Source: a virus | Direction: 5' to 3' (one strand) | Virus record (IMG/VR): IMGVR_UViG_3300047551_001346 | Span: 1 to 42,692 of that record | Length of the DNA: 42,692 bases | In this document: positions 11,748 through 42,075 of the stretch, piece after piece | How positions within the stretch are numbered: the first letter of the stretch is position 1 | Layout of the letters: the number at the start of each line of letters is the position of its first letter | The notes under the pieces: generated by a model | Database searches by the model: none | The model's input: the letters and a program-made list of their open reading frames with translations, nothing else | Told to the model about the DNA's origin: nothing | Program-made: the position numbers and the translations under genes

Positions 11748-12668
11748 ATGGCTACAGCAGACACAATCAACTTTGACGCCAACGGCGTATTAATTACCGA
11801 CAGTTTATTCAACGGTAATGCAGGGTCCGGAACCGGACATATTGCTTATGATCCAACAGAAACACTAGGCAATATTTCTGCGCCCGAACTAGATACAGTA
11901 AACAGCAAACGCACTGAAATTACCGATTACATTAGACTAAGATTGGCAGACGGTATTGTAGATGTAGAATTGGATAAAGAACACTACGATATGGCTATAA
12001 AGCAAGCTCTAATTAAATATCGCCAACGTGCTGCTAACAGTCAAGAAGAATCCTATGCATTCTTAAAACTAGAGCCCGAAACACAAGAATACATTTTGCC
12101 CAATGAAGTAATGGAAGTAAGAGCTGCTTACAGACGAGGCATTGGATCAGTAACTGGTACCACAGCCAGCCAATTTGAACCTTTTAGTTCTGGGTATCTT
12201 AACACTTATATGTTGGTGGCAGGCCGTGTAGGAGGCCTGTTAAGCTACGAACTATTTGTTGATTACCAAAAAATGTCCATGAAAATGTTTGGTGGTTATT
12301 TGAATTTTACATTCAACAAAACCAGTAAAAAGCTAACATTGATCAGAAAAATTCCTTTTGCCGGAGCCAATCAAAATCCAAGAGAAATGGAAGATGTGTT
12401 GTTGCATATCTATAACTACAAACCAGATTCAATGTTGTTAAACGATTATCAAGCGTTTCCGTGGATTCAAGAATATGCATACAGTTTTGCCAAACGTATT
12501 CTAGGCGAAGCTAGAGAAAAGTTTGCTACTATTGCTGGTCCACAAGGTGGTACGCAATTGAATGGGTCAAGCTTAAAATCTGAAGCGGTGGCTGAAATGA
12601 CTGAACTAGAACAGGCACTAAGAGATTATGTAGATGGATCGTATCCTTTAACTTGGGTAATAGGTTAA
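11748..12668 (+). CDS. 13: Neck protein gp13
   Basis: The 306-residue length matches T4 gp13 (309). The opening NFDANGVLITDSLFNG followed later by ITDYIRLRLADGIVDVELDKEHYDMAIKQALIKYR has the layout seen in cyanophage-type gp13: a short leader, a helix, a 'V-x-VEL-x-x-x-x-x-D-x-A-I/L-x-x-AL' segment, then a strand 'QEYILPNEVMEVRAAYRRG'. gp13 forms the neck ring with gp14 after DNA packaging. It is preceded by its own late promoter and coupled through TAATG to the next small gene. Its partner gp14 is on the other strand 1.6 kb away, an uncommon split of a usually adjacent pair. Confidence 0.7.
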   Translation: MATADTINFDANGVLITDSLFNGNAGSGTGHIAYDPTETLGNISAPELDTVNSKRTEITDYIRLRLADGIVDVELDKEHYDMAIKQALIKYRQRAANSQEESYAFLKLEPETQEYILPNEVMEVRAAYRRGIGSVTGTTASQFEPFSSGYLNTYMLVAGRVGGLLSYELFVDYQKMSMKMFGGYLNFTFNKTSKKLTLIRKIPFAGANQNPREMEDVLLHIYNYKPDSMLLNDYQAFPWIQEYAYSFAKRILGEAREKFATIAGPQGGTQLNGSSLKSEAVAEMTELEQALRDYVDGSYPLTWVIG

Positions 12669-13088: not shown

Positions 13089-13781
13089 ATGATCATTGGC
13101 GTAACAGGATTTATTGGTTCAGGTAAAGACACAGTGGCTAATTATCTAGTGGCTAAACACAATTTTCGTAGAGACAGTTTTGCTGGAACTCTTAAAGATG
13201 CAGTGGCACAAGTGTTTGGATGGGATCGTGAGTTATTGGAAGGCCTAACGCCAGAAGCTAGAGAATGGCGTGAACAAGTGGACCCTTGGTGGGCTAAAAG
13301 ATTGGACATGCCTAATTTAACCCCAAGATATATGCTACAACTCTGGGGCACTGAAGTTTGTAGGAGAGGGTTTCATGACGACGTTTGGATTGCTAGTTTA
13401 GAAAATAGGTTACGTAAAACAGTTGATGATATTGTAATCAGCGATGTAAGATTTCCCAATGAAATTGCAGCTATAAGAAAACATGGTGGTATTTGTGTGT
13501 GGGTGAAACGTGGGGAACTGCCAGAATGGTACGATTGTGCGCTGAGAGAAAATACAACACACGAAGACCGTCAGTGGTTATTAGAAGATGCAGGACAACT
13601 TATGCCACAACGCTACCCTAGAGTACATCACAGCGAGTGGGCATGGATTGGGCAGACTTTTAATTATGAAATTGAAAATAATGGTACGCTAGATGAACTT
13701 TATGCTAAAATTAATAGTCTGCTATTAAGTCCGCTGGTTTCCACCCCAATTGGAAATCAGCCAGCGCAGCCTGACAGTTAA
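13089..13781 (+). CDS. 1: Deoxynucleoside monophosphate kinase (gene 1)
   Basis: This 230-residue protein begins IIGVTGFIGSGKDTVANYL, a P-loop (residues 7-15, GxxGSGKDT) with the Asp typical of dNMP kinases. It continues with RDSFAGTLKDAV (substrate-lid region), YMLQLWGTEVCRR and IVISDVRFPNEIAAIRKHGG, the layout of T4 gp1. The enzyme phosphorylates dNMPs, in T4 including modified dCMP, for the phage dNTP supply. Size is close to T4 gp1 (241). A promoter lies just upstream, and a hairpin can hide the AGGGGG ribosome site in read-through RNA. The 3' end overlaps the convergent HNH-like gene by 71 bases. Confidence 0.88.
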   Translation: MIIGVTGFIGSGKDTVANYLVAKHNFRRDSFAGTLKDAVAQVFGWDRELLEGLTPEAREWREQVDPWWAKRLDMPNLTPRYMLQLWGTEVCRRGFHDDVWIASLENRLRKTVDDIVISDVRFPNEIAAIRKHGGICVWVKRGELPEWYDCALRENTTHEDRQWLLEDAGQLMPQRYPRVHHSEWAWIGQTFNYEIENNGTLDELYAKINSLLLSPLVSTPIGNQPAQPDS

Positions 13782-14103
13782 GGCATATAGTTTTGAGATT
13801 ATTCCAATCGTTGTTTTTCAAGTTGCCATCAACATAGTATACTCTTAGCTGAGTTTTTGTGTTTTTTGCAACAAAATTACATTTATCACACCTTGTTTTT
13901 TTCTTGTAACCAGATTTAACCCATGCGGGCGGCACTGGTTTTATTTTGCTTTTCTTCCTAATACAGTGTGTACATAATTTTCTGAAATACACTACGCCTT
14001 TTCTAACGTAATTAATAGCTGACAAATTTTCATTACACGCCTGGCAATAAGGTCTATACATATCCTTATTTATTTGTGACCTTTTAAAGGTACCGCTTAT
14101 CAT
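13711..14103 (-). CDS. HNH-like zinc-ribbon endonuclease (free-standing)
   Basis: The protein has four CxxC knuckles (C20/C23, C44/C47, C72/C75, C107/C110) and the segment YYVDGNLKNNDWNNLKTIC, an HNH core in which the first His is replaced by Tyr. Related small HNH/zinc-ribbon endonucleases are scattered between structural genes of T4-like phages of aquatic bacteria, where some act as homing endonucleases. The listed start gives 130 residues. A second ATG at 14061-14059 (residue 15) has TAAATA exactly five bases upstream, so a leaderless start there is an attractive alternative that keeps all cysteines. The loss of the first His leaves catalysis uncertain. Confidence 0.68.
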   Translation of the reverse strand: MISGTFKRSQINKDMYRPYCQACNENLSAINYVRKGVVYFRKLCTHCIRKKSKIKPVPPAWVKSGYKKKTRCDKCNFVAKNTKTQLRVYYVDGNLKNNDWNNLKTICLNCQAALADFQLGWKPADLIADY

Positions 14104-20068: not shown

Positions 20069-20463
20069 TGTCAAAACTAAATCCAATTAATCATCCAACC
20101 AATTTAGATCGCGTCAATCTAGATTATATAACCTTACGCGATTATCAAAAATATTTTAACAATTTTTTTGAAGTGCCCATTGAAGTTTCATCTAACATAG
20201 ATGCTGCGATTATAAGTTATTTTGAAACTGTAACTGACAATAAAGATAGTGCCAGGGCATTAGCTAGTGCTGTAATTTATACCAGTATCAAACAAGGTAG
20301 TAATCCAATGGACATACTTAGAGAATTTCAAAAATTATCTCCTGGTCAACTAGACGACTATATTGTTGCCTTTTTGAATCTTGAAAGAGTTGGAAGTTCT
20401 TATTTAGGAGTTAGAGTCAATCCTGTACCTAACAAATATATAGCGAGGACAATTATCTTTTAA
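20068..20463 (+). CDS. Conserved T4-like hypothetical protein
   Basis: This 131-residue protein is mostly helical: YITLRDYQKYFNNFFEVPIE, IDAAIISYFETVTDNKDSARALASAVIYTSIKQG and LNLERVGSSYLGVRVNP. I recall near-identical motif order in unnamed proteins of T4-like cyanophages, where they sit among neck, tail and packaging genes, but no function is known to me. It is translationally coupled on both sides (TAATG with the 60-residue gene before it, one-base overlap with gp4 after it), so it is made together with tail-tube-fold and head-completion proteins and is likely structural. Confidence 0.62.
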   Translation: MSKLNPINHPTNLDRVNLDYITLRDYQKYFNNFFEVPIEVSSNIDAAIISYFETVTDNKDSARALASAVIYTSIKQGSNPMDILREFQKLSPGQLDDYIVAFLNLERVGSSYLGVRVNPVPNKYIARTIIF

Positions 20464-20900
20464 TGGCCAAATACGCTAACGGGTTTTATCAAATTTTAAA
20501 TCCTGACAAATATGTAGGGAAACGTGTGCCTCATTTTAGAAGTAGTTGGGAACACTCATTTATGAGATTTTGTGATAATAATCCAGCTGTAATACAATGG
20601 GCAAGTGAAGCAATACACATTCCTTATACTAATCCTTTTACCAATCGTAATACTATTTACGTTCCTGATTTTTTAATTATATATCAGAACAAAAACGGTG
20701 AACGTATCGGCGAACTTATTGAAATCAAACCCGGCAAACAAACTACGCTAGAAGCAGCTGGAAAGAGTGTGAGAGATCAAGCCGCGGCAGTGCTTAACAT
20801 GCACAAATGGGCTGCTGCCAACGCCTGGGCCAAAGAAAATGGTTTACGTTTTAGAGTAGTCACAGAATCAGATATGTTCTATCAAGGCCGCGCTCGGTAA
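20463..20900 (+). CDS. 4: Head completion protein gp4
   Basis: The 145-residue protein matches T4 gp4 (150 residues) in layout: 'NPDKYVGKRVPHFRSSWEHSFMRFCDNNPAVIQWASE' parallels the T4 segment KYRGDPKKITYRSNWEKFFFEWLDKNPEIIAWGSE, followed by a strand with YVPDF and ELIEIKPGK, then a helix ending LRFRVVTESDMF (T4 IKFRILTEDGL). The E-x-x and D...E-I-K pattern is that of a TnsA/PD-(D/E)XK nuclease fold. In T4, gp4 acts in head completion after packaging. It is coupled to the preceding gene by one base, and its stop codon contains the start of the late promoter motif for gp16. Confidence 0.88.
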   Translation: MAKYANGFYQILNPDKYVGKRVPHFRSSWEHSFMRFCDNNPAVIQWASEAIHIPYTNPFTNRNTIYVPDFLIIYQNKNGERIGELIEIKPGKQTTLEAAGKSVRDQAAAVLNMHKWAAANAWAKENGLRFRVVTESDMFYQGRAR

Positions 20901-22050: not shown

Positions 22051-23144
22051 TGAGCAACAATATCTACGACATCATAAAAAAGATTAACAAGCTTGAAAAT
22101 AATGTACAGACTCTGAAAGAAAGTAAGAGTATGGATAAAAAGAAAGAAGATAAAAAAGATGAAAGCAAGAAGAAAGACAAGGCTGATAAAGGCGCGATTG
22201 CTGAAGCAGTTGCGCGAGTTGAAAAGCAATTAAATGAAAAATATAACGGCTTCAAAAAAATGCGAGAAAGTCAAGTAGAAGAAAGTGGTCTACAAGCATA
22301 CTTAGGTAAAAAGAAGTATGGCGAAACTGGAATGAAAGCATTACAGAAGGCCGGTCGTGAAGGTGCTAGCAAAGAGAAAATGGCCATGATCCGTGCCAAG
22401 CATGACAAGATGGATGAAGCTGTAGATCAAGAAGGACCAGCAGATCTATTGGCTGCGGTTGAACAAGAAATCAATAACCCAGGGCGAAGTATTGATAACC
22501 TAATAGATGTCTTGAACGCAACTTTTGGTAGCAATAGATCACCTGAGTTTAAAAAGGCCCGTGCAGTCATTGGCAAGTATATTGACTTGGTAGACAACGC
22601 TGCGATGGGCAGCGAACAAGATGGTATCGCGCCAATGAGAGGTGGCAATATTGCTCGTCATATCCAACAATATGACCTTACTGATTATCTACAACATGCT
22701 GCTGCTATGTTGGATAAAGCAGTTAAAGGTCCAATAGACGAAGGCAGTTATAACGAAGAAATGCTTTCGCACAAGCAAAAAAGTTTTGCGGCACTAGCGG
22801 AGCCCAAAGACAAAATTACCTACGCAGATAAAATTGCCGGTGCCAAGAAAAAACAAAAAGACGAAGGCAACGAATTTAGTGGAAAAAGACAGGATGCTAT
22901 TGATGCCGGTGAGACCAGCTTTGAGGTTGACGGTAAAACTTATCCTGTTAAAGAAGGTTTTCCTACCGTATCAGATGCTGAAAAGCGCATGAGAGAAAAA
23001 GAAGGCAAAACGTCACATGGTAAAAAAACCACTACCGGCACTGGAGTTAAACACGAACGTGATTATGATGCTGTAGAAAAAGGTGCAGATGTTGATACAA
23101 GACCAAAAGGTCGTGGGCGTCCTAAAAAAGATAGATTTGCATAA
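22050..23144 (+). CDS. Lys-rich coiled-coil protein with C-terminal AT-hook
   Basis: The 364-residue protein begins with a coiled coil (IYDIIKKINKLENNVQTL), then a very Lys/Glu/Asp-rich stretch (residues 28-48). Next comes a conserved-looking patch 'LQAYLGKKKYGETGMKALQKAGREGASKEKMAMIRAKHDKMDEA' (about residues 78-122) that recurs in proteins of T4-like aquatic phages. A helical domain near 130-230 follows, then a basic tail ending RPKGRGRPKKDRF, whose GRGRP core is an AT-hook. DNA binding inside the head is plausible. Several (L/I)-x-E sites could be gp21 cuts, but the N-terminus lacks the classic short leader. Coupled to both neighbours by TAATG. Confidence 0.62.
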   Translation: MSNNIYDIIKKINKLENNVQTLKESKSMDKKKEDKKDESKKKDKADKGAIAEAVARVEKQLNEKYNGFKKMRESQVEESGLQAYLGKKKYGETGMKALQKAGREGASKEKMAMIRAKHDKMDEAVDQEGPADLLAAVEQEINNPGRSIDNLIDVLNATFGSNRSPEFKKARAVIGKYIDLVDNAAMGSEQDGIAPMRGGNIARHIQQYDLTDYLQHAAAMLDKAVKGPIDEGSYNEEMLSHKQKSFAALAEPKDKITYADKIAGAKKKQKDEGNEFSGKRQDAIDAGETSFEVDGKTYPVKEGFPTVSDAEKRMREKEGKTSHGKKTTTGTGVKHERDYDAVEKGADVDTRPKGRGRPKKDRFA

Positions 23145-33657: not shown

Positions 33658-34266
33658 ATGTTATCGCAACTAGATAACATCATTTTTCCAGATCGTTGTG
33701 ATGTACTAGAAATAGTTCCATCACAACGATATGTCTATCCCATATACAAAAATGGTAGTAGCAGTTTGTATAATTCGGGATTTAGATTACTGGAGCATGA
33801 TGAAATAAAAAACATTCCTGTTATTGACATTTATGTTCGCGATCCTTACGACAGATTTGTATCTGGTGTTAACACTTTTCTAAAACAAAATGCAAATTTA
33901 AATAGAGAGACAGCGATACATTTTATCACAAACTATCTATTCTTGAACAGGCACTTTTGCCCACAATTTTTTTGGCTGGTAAATTTACGAAGATTTACTG
34001 ATGCAAAAGTTCGTATCAATTCAATCGATTCACTGTCAGAAGTTACTGATTTAAAATTTAACAAAAATCAAAGCTTGCTTTCAGATGAAACTTTTGCAAA
34101 TGAAAAAATACATTTTTACTTGTCAATTGATAAAGCTTTAACTCAAGATTTACTAGGAAAAACTGTACCATTTAAGTTAATTGTACAAACAATTCGCTAT
34201 CGTTATTCTGACGTTTACAAAGAAGTAATACAAAGGAGTTTGAATTTATGCAGTGTCCTAGATTAA
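33658..34266 (+). CDS. Sulfotransferase-like protein
   Basis: This 202-residue protein has both PAPS-binding elements of carbohydrate sulfotransferases: a 5'-phosphosulfate loop YKNGSSSLY (residues 30-38), with K31 and Ser residues as in 'P-K-x-G-(S/T)-(S/T)-S/L', and a 3'-phosphate loop VRDPYDRFVSGV (residues 60-71), with R61 and S69 as in 'RDP-x-x-R-x-x-S'. The rest is helical and short, close to the minimum for the fold. These enzymes move sulfate from PAPS to sugar hydroxyls. It follows gp32 by nine bases and overlaps the first radical SAM gene by 19 bases, so it belongs to the modification cluster. Substrate unknown. Confidence 0.62.
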   Translation: MLSQLDNIIFPDRCDVLEIVPSQRYVYPIYKNGSSSLYNSGFRLLEHDEIKNIPVIDIYVRDPYDRFVSGVNTFLKQNANLNRETAIHFITNYLFLNRHFCPQFFWLVNLRRFTDAKVRINSIDSLSEVTDLKFNKNQSLLSDETFANEKIHFYLSIDKALTQDLLGKTVPFKLIVQTIRYRYSDVYKEVIQRSLNLCSVLD

Positions 34267-35737: not shown

Positions 35738-36885
35738 GTCCAAAAGATTATTTAAAAAATAAAAATTTTTGTCCAATTCCATGGACTGGACTAATGTATA
35801 ATTTTGATGGTAGCGTAAAAAATTGCATCCGCAGTGCGGAACCAATTGGCAATATACAAAAAAATTCAATACAAGATATACTCAATGGCAAAGAAAACGT
35901 TTCCACTAAACGTGATATGCTAGACAACAAGCCCGGGTCTAGATGTTATCCGTGTTATGATTTAGAACAAAATAAAAATAGTTTTGATATTATTAGTGAT
36001 AGAGTTTTTTATTTACGCGAACTCAAATCTGTTCCGTTAATTACATATCAAAGTGCTGAAAATTTTGATCTTCAAACTATAGACATACGATGGTCAAATT
36101 TATGCAATTTTGCCTGTGTTTACTGTTATCCAGAGTTTAGTAGTAAATGGGAAAACGAGTTAGGAGTAAAACTTAAGACGCCCGTGGATCAAAATAAAGA
36201 GAAATTTGCGGAATACATTTATGACAATTTAAAAAAACTCAAACATGTTTATTTGGCAGGAGGTGAGCCTCTTTTAATCAAAGAAAATTACAATTTACTT
36301 CGGGCTTTAAAAAAAGAAAATCCCGATGTTAAATTGAGAATAAACACAAATTTAAGTAAAGTAGATACACGTATTTTTGAACTGGTTTGTTCTTTCACAA
36401 ATGTACATTGGACAGTGAGCTTAGAAACAATAGAGCAAGAGTACGAGTACATAAGATACGGTGGAAAATGGCATGAATTTTTAGAAAATTTAAACACGAT
36501 TAAAAAATTAAATCATTTAATTTCATTCAACATGCTGCATTTACTATTAAATCATTTGTCAATTTTTGAATGTGTAGATTTTTTAAAAGCTCAAGGTTTT
36601 CATAACAACAGTTTTATTATAGGTTCTTTATTAAAACCTGAATTTCTAAATATTAGACATTTGCCAGACAATGTGTTAACATTAGTGAAAGATGAATTAA
36701 AAGCTAGAATAAATGAAAAACCTGGTTTTCTACTTGAAAACGGATATAATAATATATTAAAATATATTGATGAACCAATGCAAAAAAATTTAGCTGAATC
36801 GTTTAATCAATTGAAAGTAATAGATCAACGACGCGGCCTAGATAGTAAAAAAATTTTTAAGGAACTTTATAATTATGGCAACTAA
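35734..36885 (+). CDS. Radical SAM protein 2, N-terminal Cys module (twitch type)
   Basis: The 383-residue protein has C124-x3-C128-x2-C131 (LCNFACVYCY), AGGEPLL as the SAM strand, and WTVSLETI later. The N-terminus NFCPIPWTGLMYNFDGSVKNC (C13, C31), 'IGNIQ...IQDILNGKE...RDMLDNKPG' and RCYPC (C71, C74) form a four-Cys module of the SPASM/twitch sort placed before the barrel. This layout is shared with protein 1 and protein 3, so all three are one family. The sequence is much richer in A/T runs than the neighbouring uvsX. The start overlaps the SDR stop, and the uvsX start lies 11 bases inside its end. Confidence 0.87.
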   Translation: MSPKDYLKNKNFCPIPWTGLMYNFDGSVKNCIRSAEPIGNIQKNSIQDILNGKENVSTKRDMLDNKPGSRCYPCYDLEQNKNSFDIISDRVFYLRELKSVPLITYQSAENFDLQTIDIRWSNLCNFACVYCYPEFSSKWENELGVKLKTPVDQNKEKFAEYIYDNLKKLKHVYLAGGEPLLIKENYNLLRALKKENPDVKLRINTNLSKVDTRIFELVCSFTNVHWTVSLETIEQEYEYIRYGGKWHEFLENLNTIKKLNHLISFNMLHLLLNHLSIFECVDFLKAQGFHNNSFIIGSLLKPEFLNIRHLPDNVLTLVKDELKARINEKPGFLLENGYNNILKYIDEPMQKNLAESFNQLKVIDQRRGLDSKKIFKELYNYGN

Positions 36886-37945
36886 ACCATTTGATGTATC
36901 AAAATTTCGTAAAAGTATTACAAAAAGTATTGACGGTATCAGCGTTGGATTCAACGACCCAACAGATTGGATCAGCACAAACAACTACGCTCTTAACTAC
37001 CTTATTAGTGGGGATTTCAATAAGGGCATACCGATGGGTAAGGTTACAGTCTTTGCTGGTGAATCTGGTGCGGGTAAATCCTTTATCTGCTCGGGAAATC
37101 TCGTCAAGAATGCACAAGAACAAGGTATTTACGTTATCCTTATCGATACTGAAAACGCACTTGATGAAGCGTGGCTACACGCACTCGGTGTGGACACTAG
37201 TGAGAACAAACTTCTCAAACTCAATATGGCCATGATCGACGACGTTGCCAAAATGATCACCGAGTTCGTAAAGGAATATAAAACACTACCCGAAGATCAA
37301 CGTCCTAAGGTACTAATAGTATTAGACAGTCTAGGCATGTTGCTGACTCCTACAGATGTCAATCAGTTTGAAGCCGGCGACCTGAAAGGTGACATGGGTC
37401 GTAAACCCAAGGCACTAACAGCACTAGTTCGTAACTGTGTTAACATGTTTGGTAGCTTGAACATTGGATTGGTGGCAACCAACCACACATACGCATCACA
37501 GGATATGTTTGATCCAGATGACAAGATCTCAGGCGGCCAAGGTTTTATCTATGCTAGTTCAATTGTGGTTGCTATGCGTAAACTCAAACTCAAAGAAGAT
37601 GAAGATGGCAACAAGATTTCAGAAGTCAAGGGTATCAGAGCAGCATGTAAGATCATGAAAACACGCTACGCCAAACCGTTTGAAAGTGTACAGGTCAAGA
37701 TTCCATACGAGCAAGGAATGAATCCTTATTCAGGGTTAGTTGACTTGTTTGAGGGTAAAGGTTTGTTACAGAAAGAAGGTAACAGTCTTAAATACACGCT
37801 AGCAGATGGTACTGTAATCAAGCAGTTCCGCAAGGCCTGGGAACGCAATGAGGATGGCAGCTTGGATAAAGTTATGAGCGACTTTGCTGCCAATCCACAC
37901 AAGGATACTGCTGCTGTCCAACTAGAAGAGGAAATTGTTGAATGA
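36875..37945 (+). CDS. uvsX: UvsX RecA-like recombinase
   Basis: The 356-residue protein has Walker A GESGAGKS (residues 62-69), Walker B VLIVLDSLGML, the RecA-type ATN-H loop (GLVATNHTYA), the DNA-binding region SGGQGFIYASSIVVAM, and the acidic tail LEEEIVE. It is close in size to T4 UvsX (391). UvsX drives strand exchange and recombination-dependent replication with UvsY and gp32. It begins 11 bases inside the radical SAM 2 gene with AAGGA upstream, and its stop overlaps the next small gene (ATGA). Its codons are less AT-biased than those of the radical SAM genes around it. Confidence 0.95.
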   Translation: MATKPFDVSKFRKSITKSIDGISVGFNDPTDWISTNNYALNYLISGDFNKGIPMGKVTVFAGESGAGKSFICSGNLVKNAQEQGIYVILIDTENALDEAWLHALGVDTSENKLLKLNMAMIDDVAKMITEFVKEYKTLPEDQRPKVLIVLDSLGMLLTPTDVNQFEAGDLKGDMGRKPKALTALVRNCVNMFGSLNIGLVATNHTYASQDMFDPDDKISGGQGFIYASSIVVAMRKLKLKEDEDGNKISEVKGIRAACKIMKTRYAKPFESVQVKIPYEQGMNPYSGLVDLFEGKGLLQKEGNSLKYTLADGTVIKQFRKAWERNEDGSLDKVMSDFAANPHKDTAAVQLEEEIVE

Positions 37946-38160: not shown

Positions 38161-39417
38161 ATGTCAAACAAAGAAAAATATTTTCCCATTCATACAGACA
38201 CAGCATGTAAACTAAAGTGGACTTGGTCCGCTCTTTACTTGGATAGAGCTAAATCTGCCACTTGTCATAGAACAGCTTATTATCCATTGACTGTTGAAAA
38301 TTTTTCTGATTTTCATAACAATCCGTTGGTTATAAGTGACAGACAAAATATGTTAAAAGGCCAGTGGCCCAACGAAAGTTGTAGATATTGTAAAAATATT
38401 GAGGACAGTGGCGGAGTAAGTGATAGATTACATATGCTGAGTCAACCTGGTTTGATTCCTCCTGAACTTGATTCTAATCCAAATGAAATTTATGTTACTC
38501 CTAGAGTACTAGAAATCTTTATAAACAACGTGTGTAATCTTTCGTGTTTGTATTGTCGAGGAGATTTAAGCAGCAGAATTAATCAAGAAAATAAAAAGTT
38601 TGGAAAATTTGATAAAGACGGAGTAATACTTGAAGAAATAGCAATTGATCGAGAAAATAATTTGATATCATCTTCTTTGGATTGGTTGTCTAAAAACTAC
38701 CACCATTTAGAAAGATTGCATTTTTTAGGTGGTGAACCACTGGTACAGAAAGAATTGGATTTATTTTTAAAATTTTTACAGGAAAATAAAAATTCAAAAT
38801 TAGAAGTTAACATTGTAACAAATTTAATGGTAAGTGAAAAAAAATTAAAAAATTACATTCAAATTTTTAAACAATTAATTGTAGAAAAACGTATCCGACG
38901 TTTGGATATTACTTGCAGCATTGACAGTTGGGGAGCCGAACAAGAATTTGTTCGATATGGATTGAATTTGACGACGTGGGAAAGAAATTTTAATTTTCTA
39001 CTAGAAATACCATGGTTAGTGCTACACATCAATCAAACAATTACAAATTTAACTATTAAACAAATGCCAACGCTAATTGAAAAGTTAGTGGAATGGAGAC
39101 GTAAAAAAAATGTAGGACACTATTTTTCAACTGTTAATCCTGGTCCCAGCTACATGATTCCGTCAATTTTAGGATCAGAAGAATTTGCAGAAGACTTTGA
39201 AAAAATATTAAAATTAATGCCGCGGCAAACTAGCGAAGACCAAATAAAATTTGAATACATGCAAGGTATAGCTAATGAATACTTGCAAAATGCTCTGATT
39301 GATCACGCAGAAATTAAGAAACTTTATACTTTTTTAAATGAAATTGATAGAAGAAGAAGCACTGACTGGCAATTAACTTTTCCATGGTTATTAAAATACA
39401 AAGAATATGTGGTATAA
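38161..39417 (+). CDS. Radical SAM protein 3, N-terminal Cys module (twitch type)
   Basis: The 418-residue protein has C125-x3-C129-x2-C132 (VCNLSCLYCRG) and LGGEPLV, with ITCSIDSWG later in the barrel. N-terminal cysteines C16, C35, C74 and C77 lie in 'ACKLKWTWSALYLDRAKSATC...NFSDFHNNP...M-L-K-G-Q-W-P-N-E-S-C-R-Y-C', the same four-Cys order as proteins 1 and 2. It lies between the uvsX accessory gene and uvsY, overlapping uvsY by 11 bases. The DNA is strongly AT-biased. Divergence from proteins 1 and 2 outside the motifs suggests different substrates or successive steps, not a recent duplication. Confidence 0.86.
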   Translation: MSNKEKYFPIHTDTACKLKWTWSALYLDRAKSATCHRTAYYPLTVENFSDFHNNPLVISDRQNMLKGQWPNESCRYCKNIEDSGGVSDRLHMLSQPGLIPPELDSNPNEIYVTPRVLEIFINNVCNLSCLYCRGDLSSRINQENKKFGKFDKDGVILEEIAIDRENNLISSSLDWLSKNYHHLERLHFLGGEPLVQKELDLFLKFLQENKNSKLEVNIVTNLMVSEKKLKNYIQIFKQLIVEKRIRRLDITCSIDSWGAEQEFVRYGLNLTTWERNFNFLLEIPWLVLHINQTITNLTIKQMPTLIEKLVEWRRKKNVGHYFSTVNPGPSYMIPSILGSEEFAEDFEKILKLMPRQTSEDQIKFEYMQGIANEYLQNALIDHAEIKKLYTFLNEIDRRRSTDWQLTFPWLLKYKEYVV

Positions 39418-39859
39418 TAAAATTGTTGCAGATCTTGGAAATATTCCGGCCTTCATTGACTTCTATGAAGGTGAACTTGTGCAGGCAAAAACAGAAACAT
39501 ACATACGAGGTAATGTTGAAAAATCCGCTGCAAATTTACCGGGAATTACAGAGCACAGATTTAACCAACTCCAAGAGATTGAGGCTGTACTTAACTATCT
39601 TAACATACAACTTCGTAAAATTAGACGAAAACATTTTCAGAAGTACCTGGAAGCTTATGCCCGAGCTCTTACAAGTCGCGACGCAGAGAAATATACAGAT
39701 GGAGAAGACGAAGTCATTGACTTTGAAACTATCATTAACGAAGTTGCTTTGCTTAGAAACAAATGGCTTGGAGTTATGAAAGGCCTAGAAAGTAAAAACT
39801 TTATGTTAGGTCATGTTGTTCGTCTAAGAACAGCTGGAATGGAAGATATTGTGATTTAA
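39407..39859 (+). CDS. uvsY: UvsY-like recombination mediator
   Basis: This 150-residue protein is almost all helical with the UvsY pattern: a helix QLQEIEAVLNYLNIQLRKIR, a basic-aromatic KHFQKYLEAYARALTSRDAEKY, and a final helix INEVALLRNKWLGVMKGLESKNFMLGHVVRLR. T4 UvsY (137 residues) has the same order: coiled region, 'ARLDYYSGRG', then 'ILLDFCSGALDAIKSRGFAIKHI'. UvsY loads UvsX on gp32-coated ssDNA. It starts 11 bases inside the radical SAM 3 gene, separated from uvsX by that gene. Assignment rests on layout, size and neighbourhood. Confidence 0.72.
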   Translation: MWYNKIVADLGNIPAFIDFYEGELVQAKTETYIRGNVEKSAANLPGITEHRFNQLQEIEAVLNYLNIQLRKIRRKHFQKYLEAYARALTSRDAEKYTDGEDEVIDFETIINEVALLRNKWLGVMKGLESKNFMLGHVVRLRTAGMEDIVI

Positions 39860-40858: not shown

Positions 40859-40874
40859 AGATATTTTAAAACCA

Positions 40875-40880
40875 TAAATA
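40875..40880 (+). promoter_or_regulatory. Late promoter core near leaderless spacing
   Basis: CCATAAATA is followed by TTACATT and the ATG at 40888. The predicted start near 40886 gives a two-base leader. No Shine-Dalgarno sequence is present. Confidence 0.5.
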
Positions 40881-40887
40881 TTACATT

Positions 40888-42075
40888 ATGCGTAATTTAA
40901 TCAATATTCTAGCAGAGGCTGATGCACCTATTAAAAAAGAAATAGTTGCTCAAGTAAAGCAAACCCACGATATTAACGTTCTTAATAGAGTTTTGAATGT
41001 GTTACGTGCTGGAAATTTAGACGAAAAAATCAGCGCAGTTTTGTCACAAGATGCTGATGCAGCAAACTTTTTAGAAACTGTGGCAGATGTTATATTAAAA
41101 ATTAACGCTCCAATTGAGGAAAAAGATGCCTTCTTAAATCGTTTTCCAAAAGGTATTATTAATACTTCTTTGCTGTTAGATGGCGGTTTACACTCTTATT
41201 TGGATATAGTTAACGGTGACAATTTTGCCCGTACTGTTCTAGCCACGCTAGCTGCACACAGAACATTGATACCTCAGGGCGTTGGTCCTGGGGAAATAGC
41301 TCTTGCGATATTAAGTCCACAAATCAAATGGAGTGGTCGTATAAAAGGAGGCGGCGATATCATTGTTGGAAAAACAGCAATTGAAGTAAAAACAACATTA
41401 GAAAGTGGCGGCCGTTGGGTTAATGCTCGTAAAGCTGATCAGGACATGGCCTCAATTAAAAATGCTATTTTGGATGCTTTTAGACAAATTAATACTAATC
41501 CCCCGGCTATACCTCCAAGATTAAATCCAAACATATGGGTAGATCAAATTAGACCGCGATTGGCACTGGCTGGTAAACCAAATGTTTTAAAACGATGCGT
41601 AGGTATTATGGCAAAGGGATTATTTGCCCATGCCAACACTAGCGATTATGAATCAGCATTATTAAACGGAACTGCGGCTGACATATCGGCAAGTATATTA
41701 AAAACAGGATTTGAAAATTATAAAAACTATTCAAATTTTGACGGTATACTAATGATGAATAACAATTCTGAATCTGTGCAATATTTTACTTCGTATGAAA
41801 GTATGCAAGGTTTAATTAAATCTGATGTTGCCTATATAATGGCTCCGGACTCAGAAGGTATGCCCAAGGTAGATTTAATCGCTGTTGCATCAACCGGGGT
41901 TGATGTAAAAGCATTAAGAAAAGCAGAACGTGCCGCAGCGAAAGCTTCGTCTCAACCTGCAGCAGCACAATCTGTATTAGATCCTGACAACACTAGACTA
42001 CAAGTTACCAGAAAAGGTCGCCAAGCAGAACCACGCGATAAAGATACTACACCTAGACAACGACGCGATAAGTAA
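40888..42075 (+). CDS. Leader-bearing PD-(D/E)XK nuclease-like protein
   Basis: The 395-residue protein opens MRNLINILAE then ADAPIKKE, a T4-like capsid-targeting leader with an L-A-E site after residue 10. The centre carries a PD-(D/E)XK core: E136 in GPGEIALAIL, D157 in GGGDIIVGKT, and E166-V-K168 in AIEVKTT, the spacing seen in restriction-type endonucleases. The N-terminal 120 residues are helical, and the C-terminus is basic and disordered (KALRKAERAAAKASS...RKGRQAEPRDKD...RQRRDK). A nuclease with this leader could be packaged and enter the host with the DNA. Its late promoter core fits virion production. Nuclease activity and packaging are both inferred. Confidence 0.68.
   Translation: MRNLINILAEADAPIKKEIVAQVKQTHDINVLNRVLNVLRAGNLDEKISAVLSQDADAANFLETVADVILKINAPIEEKDAFLNRFPKGIINTSLLLDGGLHSYLDIVNGDNFARTVLATLAAHRTLIPQGVGPGEIALAILSPQIKWSGRIKGGGDIIVGKTAIEVKTTLESGGRWVNARKADQDMASIKNAILDAFRQINTNPPAIPPRLNPNIWVDQIRPRLALAGKPNVLKRCVGIMAKGLFAHANTSDYESALLNGTAADISASILKTGFENYKNYSNFDGILMMNNNSESVQYFTSYESMQGLIKSDVAYIMAPDSEGMPKVDLIAVASTGVDVKALRKAERAAAKASSQPAAAQSVLDPDNTRLQVTRKGRQAEPRDKDTTPRQRRDK

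Follow-up and report, generated by a model that had tools for sequence, protein, structure and literature searches.

What is the role of a phage gene whose two ends and position stay constant while its middle part is exchanged? The question is raised by a gene at positions 40888-42075 (plus strand) of a 42,692-nucleotide stretch of DNA, the IMG/VR record IMGVR_UViG_3300047551_001346, which we refer to as the window and which comes from a T4-like water phage. This slot gene codes for 395 amino acids starting with MRNLINILAE, and its exchangeable core (core A; residues 11-345, 40918..41922, plus strand) resembles a PD-(D/E)XK nuclease. The answer that we favor, with a probability of about one half, is that it represents one of the alleles at a cassette-exchange locus of capsid-addressed restriction-type endonucleases in T4-like phages, which would be delivered against unprotected DNA.

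The locus was found by scans with the tail of the protein, with uvsY and with the radical-SAM gene at the flank. They were preceded by the first scan for relatives of the slot gene, in which four loci matched near the C terminus alone, with the same leader and tail and a different core. The gene order is uvsX, W37942, uvsY, W39859, W40097, an optional gene with the motif TGGFDPxH, the slot gene and often a radical-SAM gene (W numbers are start coordinates in the window). In the window, all on the plus strand, the left anchors are the recombinase gene uvsX (36875..37945, phrog_97) and uvsY (39407..39859, phrog_231), the upstream flank is a class-I methyltransferase-like gene (W40097, 40097..40858) and the downstream flank is a radical-SAM gene (W42080, 42080..42691) that is cut by the window end. 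Four radical-SAM genes (starting at 34248, 35734, 38161 and 42080) are found among uvsX and uvsY, and related phages differ in how many of them they have and where. An HNH-endonuclease-like gene (13711-14103, minus strand, phrog_14736) is located amid the structural genes. At three loci (L150, L151 and L173) the slot gene is missing and both flanks are kept, indicating that this lineage can do without the cassette. Within the limited literature searched, we found no paper describing this locus.

We compared the window phage (L001, identical over the slot gene) with the sister phage L013, which carries core C. The DNA homology stops at nucleotide 17 of the gene, comes back about 98 nucleotides before the stop codon and goes on for 3 kb at 82%, the replaced stretch being 40904..41977 (plus strand). 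Comparable breaks appear against phages with cores B, C and D. Altogether 113 slot occupants were extracted, 76 of them distinct, and after dropping three that were not slot genes or were too short, 73 were kept. They form five core families, A to E, that can be separated by sequence and among which only C and E are linked. BLAST clustering had joined A and C by their common tail, and they were split by hand on the aligned regions. Profile comparisons covered cores A, B, C and E. Only the tail was common to the pairs A-B, A-C and B-C, the probability was low for A-E and B-E, and the catalytic region was matched between C and E at 88% probability. Cores C and E are probably related; when the others are called unrelated, it is by sequence and at the depth compared. 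The idea of one core per lineage was rejected, the core labels being dispersed over the upstream-gene tree. On this protein tree of W40097 (IQ-TREE, 67 rows) the five labels need about 27 changes, with a minimum of 4 and a shuffled mean of 36, a count made on the tree of one gene to which recombination of the marker itself may contribute a part. The leader, the tail and the locus are constant while unrelated nuclease cores are swapped, and the tail is nearly constant in close relatives.

The N terminus (residues 1-10, 40888..40917, plus strand) resembles the 10-residue capsid targeting sequence (CTS) of T4 with its L-x-E protease motif. In T4 the first 10 residues are enough for targeting, which depends on positions 4 and 7, processing depends on 8 and 10, and gp21 cleaves after L/I-X-E (PMC9026906). 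Judged by its residues, the slot leader fits a CTS of this type, that is, an N-terminal leader of about 10 residues ending in L/I-x-E. The motif [LIV]xE was found within the first 16 residues in 70 of the 73 distinct slot proteins against 28 of 163 background ORFs, and R or K at position 2 in 73/73 against 28/163, counts that are not independent given the relatedness of slot proteins inside each core family. Some of the leaders have D in place of the E at position 10, or have the E shifted. A related phage of 137 kb has 15 leader-like starts, compared with 4.8 +/- 2.1 and a maximum of 14 in 1000 shuffles. A gp21-type protease (PF03420) is present in two related long records, of 137 kb and 121 kb, and a gp23-type capsid protein is likewise encoded in two related long records. 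The window has other CTS-like starts, at 12668 (MKIKDIISE), 21427 (MKSLHAYIAE), 23144 (MKIKEIIDE), 24954 (MKISEVITE) and 27256 (MKSLREYIE); the one at 23144 goes together with a transglycosylase domain (phrog_4067) and is a candidate internal enzyme.

Located 15 nucleotides 5' of the start codon is the late promoter element CATAAATA (40873..40880, plus strand). The motif TAAATA occurs at 40 nucleotides or less upstream of 62/62 distinct slot genes; upstream of uvsX, uvsY, W37942, W39859 and W40097 it was found 0-1 times per gene type (57-107 upstreams each) and upstream of W42080 in 6 of 60. In the related phage of 137 kb, 32 of 164 genes have it upstream, including those for capsid, sheath and tube, when about 3 would be expected. 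The pattern points to late expression of the slot genes. Both the capsid-targeting leader and the late promoter core had been proposed in the first-pass annotation, and these counts agree with it. The distance from TAAATA to the ATG is 10-13 nucleotides in most slots against about 22-29 for several structural genes, and a very short 5' leader would result from the short gap.

The sequence of events that we propose starts with late transcription of the slot gene. The leader would draw the protein into the prohead core, a gp21-type protease would cut the leader after E10, and the mature nuclease would ride in the head and reach a new cell together with the phage DNA. In that cell it would cut DNA without the phage's own protection, most likely that of competing phages or other mobile elements or, as the main alternative, that of the host. 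The short leader probably loads the enzyme into the virus head. Chlorovirus virions package restriction enzymes and not the partner methyltransferases (PMC7019647), and from this precedent and the T4 rules we infer packaging, injection and DNA cutting by analogy; processing, delivery, target and the self-protection of core A phages are proposed in the same conditional sense. In related phages the enzyme is repeatedly replaced by unrelated ones behind the same tag and promoter and at the same position, which suggests a set of interchangeable DNA-cutting weapons carried into the cell.

The same delivered nuclease might have the job of rapidly degrading the host chromosome at entry, as has been proposed for the virion restriction enzymes of chloroviruses. 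Expressed late and equipped with a leader, the enzyme would be on hand at time zero. The frequent core swaps would not be explained by this job alone unless host methylation varied in step, and we consider it unlikely.

The nuclease character of core A is indicated by its active site. The identity of the relatives found in the IMG/VR scans falls from 100% to about 20%. Among 17 aligned homologues (20-93% identity) the invariant columns include G133, E136, G156, D157 and G175, and E166 and K168 are found in 17/17 after the VEVKT of L070 and L081 was shifted by hand. On the plus strand, E136 (motif I, 41293..41295) falls in helix 134-142 of the model, D157 (motif II, 41356..41358) at the start of strand 158-160 and E166-x-K168 (motif III, 41383..41391) in strand 163-170. 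The predicted elements follow the order helix 134-142, strands 146-148, 158-160 and 163-170, and helix 187-200. Core A thus appears, in alignment and model, to have the layout of a PD-(D/E)XK active site, with the acid on helix 1, the D on strand 2 and (D/E)-x-K on strand 3.

The model of core A (pLDDT 76) ranked HinP1I first at Z 4.3, followed by PvuII (3.2), 3ndh (3.2), NaeI (2.6) and Hjc (2.6), and that of core B (pLDDT 69) gave MspI at Z 6.6 (210 residues) and HinP1I at Z 6.1 (200 residues), with the next row at 4.1; values below 7 are modest and the tool warns that they may be due to chance. These matches carry weight because two cores without detectable sequence relation agree, together with the active-site residues. 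The fold of core B is predicted from its model to be nearest to MspI and HinP1I. A Foldseek search with the core A model gave no significant match. The first-pass annotation had read the core as PD-(D/E)XK with E136...D157...E166-x-K168. The residues are as it gave them and are kept to about 20% identity (two rows shifted by hand), and the invariant residues, the fitting order of helices and strands and the top rank of HinP1I, though weak, speak for the family. It had also described a basic disordered tail, and residues 346-395 (41923..42072, plus strand) do have a pI of 10.8, with a pLDDT below 50 over residues 353-395 of the model; residues 367-395 are common to unrelated cores.

Database searches gave little for these proteins. 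No family in Pfam, PHROGs, NCBIfam or PADLOC claimed the core A slot protein, there was no PHROG match for core A, and the best Pfam hint was DUF4420, a putative PD-(D/E)XK family (E 0.26, residues 147-185). The sole PADLOC match was a weak AbiEi (E 0.036) for L111. Sequence searches with proteins and profiles gave no relevant PDB match, and relatives of cores A, C and E were absent from the collection of isolated phages. No GIY-YIG, LAGLIDADG or HNH match was found for the slot protein in Pfam, PHROGs or NCBIfam, motifs outside which homing nucleases of PD-(D/E)XK type fall. Close pairs of core A had dN/dS values of 0.065-0.078, and the range for slot genes was 0.04-0.17. The core A copy at 5001-6172 of L007, on a contig shared with L014, is frameshifted within the catalytic region, either really or by an assembly error; its close relative L032 reads intact up to the contig end.

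Putative active sites of the same kind were found in the other cores. They are E117, D246 and S266-x-K268 in core B, E198, D248 and S262-x-K264 in core C, and E244, D269 and S279-x-K281 in core E, each set invariant in the alignment of its core. Slot members of core D have N-E, a D and P-I-S-x-K, motifs also present in leaderless relatives from a vibriophage, a Stenotrophomonas phage and a cyanophage. The free relatives of core B also start without a leader, and a scan of bacterial genomes gave no relatives of core B. In cyanophages, a locus after gp41/MazG (L209, L289) has a leaderless core B followed by a PF02086 Dam-type methyltransferase (ACG-2014f) or a core D (S-8S55), and is perhaps a second variable slot.

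The first-pass annotation had suggested that the neighboring modification cluster protects the phage DNA. The neighbors of the slot gene in the window are radical-SAM and class-I methyltransferase-like genes, and searches for DNA methyltransferases of PF01555, PF02086 and PF00145, whose controls were positive, gave none for the window and none for seven related records, including long ones with cores A, B and C. For this phage the suggestion is not supported, and we do not file core A as a member of a type II restriction-modification system, since a cognate DNA methyltransferase was not found adjacent to it. QueC was absent from five records, and the thymidylate synthase family was present in one of five. 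For the sister core E the suggestion was right in kind. Among 40 loci from the core E scan, a methyltransferase gene lies directly downstream of core E in 17, several of them nearly identical, and the four that were scanned matched PF01555 (E 1e-36 to 1e-42). The pair occupies the slot in L270/L072, L271 and L283 and is found beside uvsY in L266, and those methyltransferases shown are without a leader. Homologues of them were absent from the slot-gene loci of cores A, B, C and D (tblastn, four queries). The earlier inference of a DNA-targeting enzyme delivered with the genome stands in part. The active site, the CTS-like leader, the late-type promoter and the restriction theme of the sister cores favor it, and protection of the phage DNA by the modification cluster is not supported for this phage.

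Avoidance of palindromes was considered as a guide to specificity and was dropped, since several genomes are without particular palindromes and this was not linked to the core type. As strong cases of avoidance, 40 kb of one phage (L223-L224, with the core A variant L111) contain AGCT 2 times where 134.6 are expected, and another (L045-L051) has TGCGCA 0 times against 22.3 expected and AGCGCT 0 times against 13.0.

A different role, rather more doubtful than host degradation, would be that of a nuclease working late inside the cell in recombination or packaging (Holliday resolution or debranching), with the swaps as replacements doing the same job and the leader merely placing it at the prohead. 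The slot adjoins uvsX and uvsY, PD-(D/E)XK folds act as resolvases and Hjc is among the weak matches of core A; the search for the Endonuclease VII family was without a match, but so was its control. Against this role, the slot can be empty with both flanks kept, core E is paired with a DNA methyltransferase, restriction enzymes rank first for the models of both A and B, and for a housekeeping step the cores are swapped at a high rate. The slot proteins might instead be internal proteins that bind DNA, catalytically silent or acting as decoys, and protect the injected DNA from host restriction. They would have a model in the Ip1-3 of T4, which bear a CTS, are polymorphic and are anti-restriction proteins that inhibit GmrSD (PMC12373910), yet catalytic residues that in several cores stay invariant at an identity of about 20%, and a methyltransferase adjoining core E, make this improbable. 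Selfish nucleases of the homing type that invaded the slot, with leader and tail as mere homology arms, would account for a hypervariable slot that holds nucleases between conserved ends and for the frameshifted copy of L007/L014, but most relatives have a single gene in this slot, its leader and late promoter conserved, and this, together with low dN/dS and free homologues without the leader, makes them very improbable.

Extended from this gene to phages at large, the reading of delivered, exchangeable restriction-type endonucleases becomes more tentative. Phages may carry such polymorphic enzymes in their heads, by means of CTS-like leaders and as cassettes of one locus, so that the virion would restrict DNA without its own mark or site pattern and exclude competitors. 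If true, the capsid-delivered internal proteins of T4 and restriction enzymes would be linked in an offensive that phages bring in their virions. With leader, tail and locus fixed and the core often exchanged, DNA warfare between phages would become directly testable, and these constant parts would provide a sequence handle by which many new restriction-type enzymes could be found in environmental phages.

Several known systems resemble this one. The type II restriction enzymes MspI and HinP1I are the top structural matches of the core B model, HinP1I being also the top for core A; in this comparison motif III is S-x-K in core B and E-x-K in core A. Unlike them, the slot cores have a leader and a late phage context, and no sequence similarity was found between the two. 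PHROG 3560 and 33928 match core B and PHROG 12709 matches core D, all families of unassigned function, but relatives of these cores outside the slot are without leader and tail. The gp4-like head-completion nuclease of T4 is associated with the virion, occurs in T4-like phages and has a restriction-enzyme fold (PMC7824862); it is small, conserved and without leader, unlike the slot gene, and its homologue in the window (20463-20900, phrog_218) is separate from it. Chloroviruses infect eukaryotes, and neither a capsid leader nor cassette exchange is described for them in PMC7019647. No methyltransferase partner was found for core A, unlike in the chlorovirus system, but core E, with a leader on the nuclease and a leaderless methyltransferase beside it, fits the chlorovirus pattern. 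The internal proteins IPI, IPII and IPIII of T4 differ in being GmrSD inhibitors (PMC12373910), when the slot cores carry residues of PD-(D/E)XK type; the slot gene also lies beside uvsX/uvsY, and its close relatives share a constant C-terminal tail as well. Like the slot proteins, they have a 10-residue N-terminal leader with hydrophobic residues at 4, 7 and 8 and an L/I-x-E end (PMC9026906), and in both a polymorphic content is found behind a constant leader (PMC9026906, PMC12373910).
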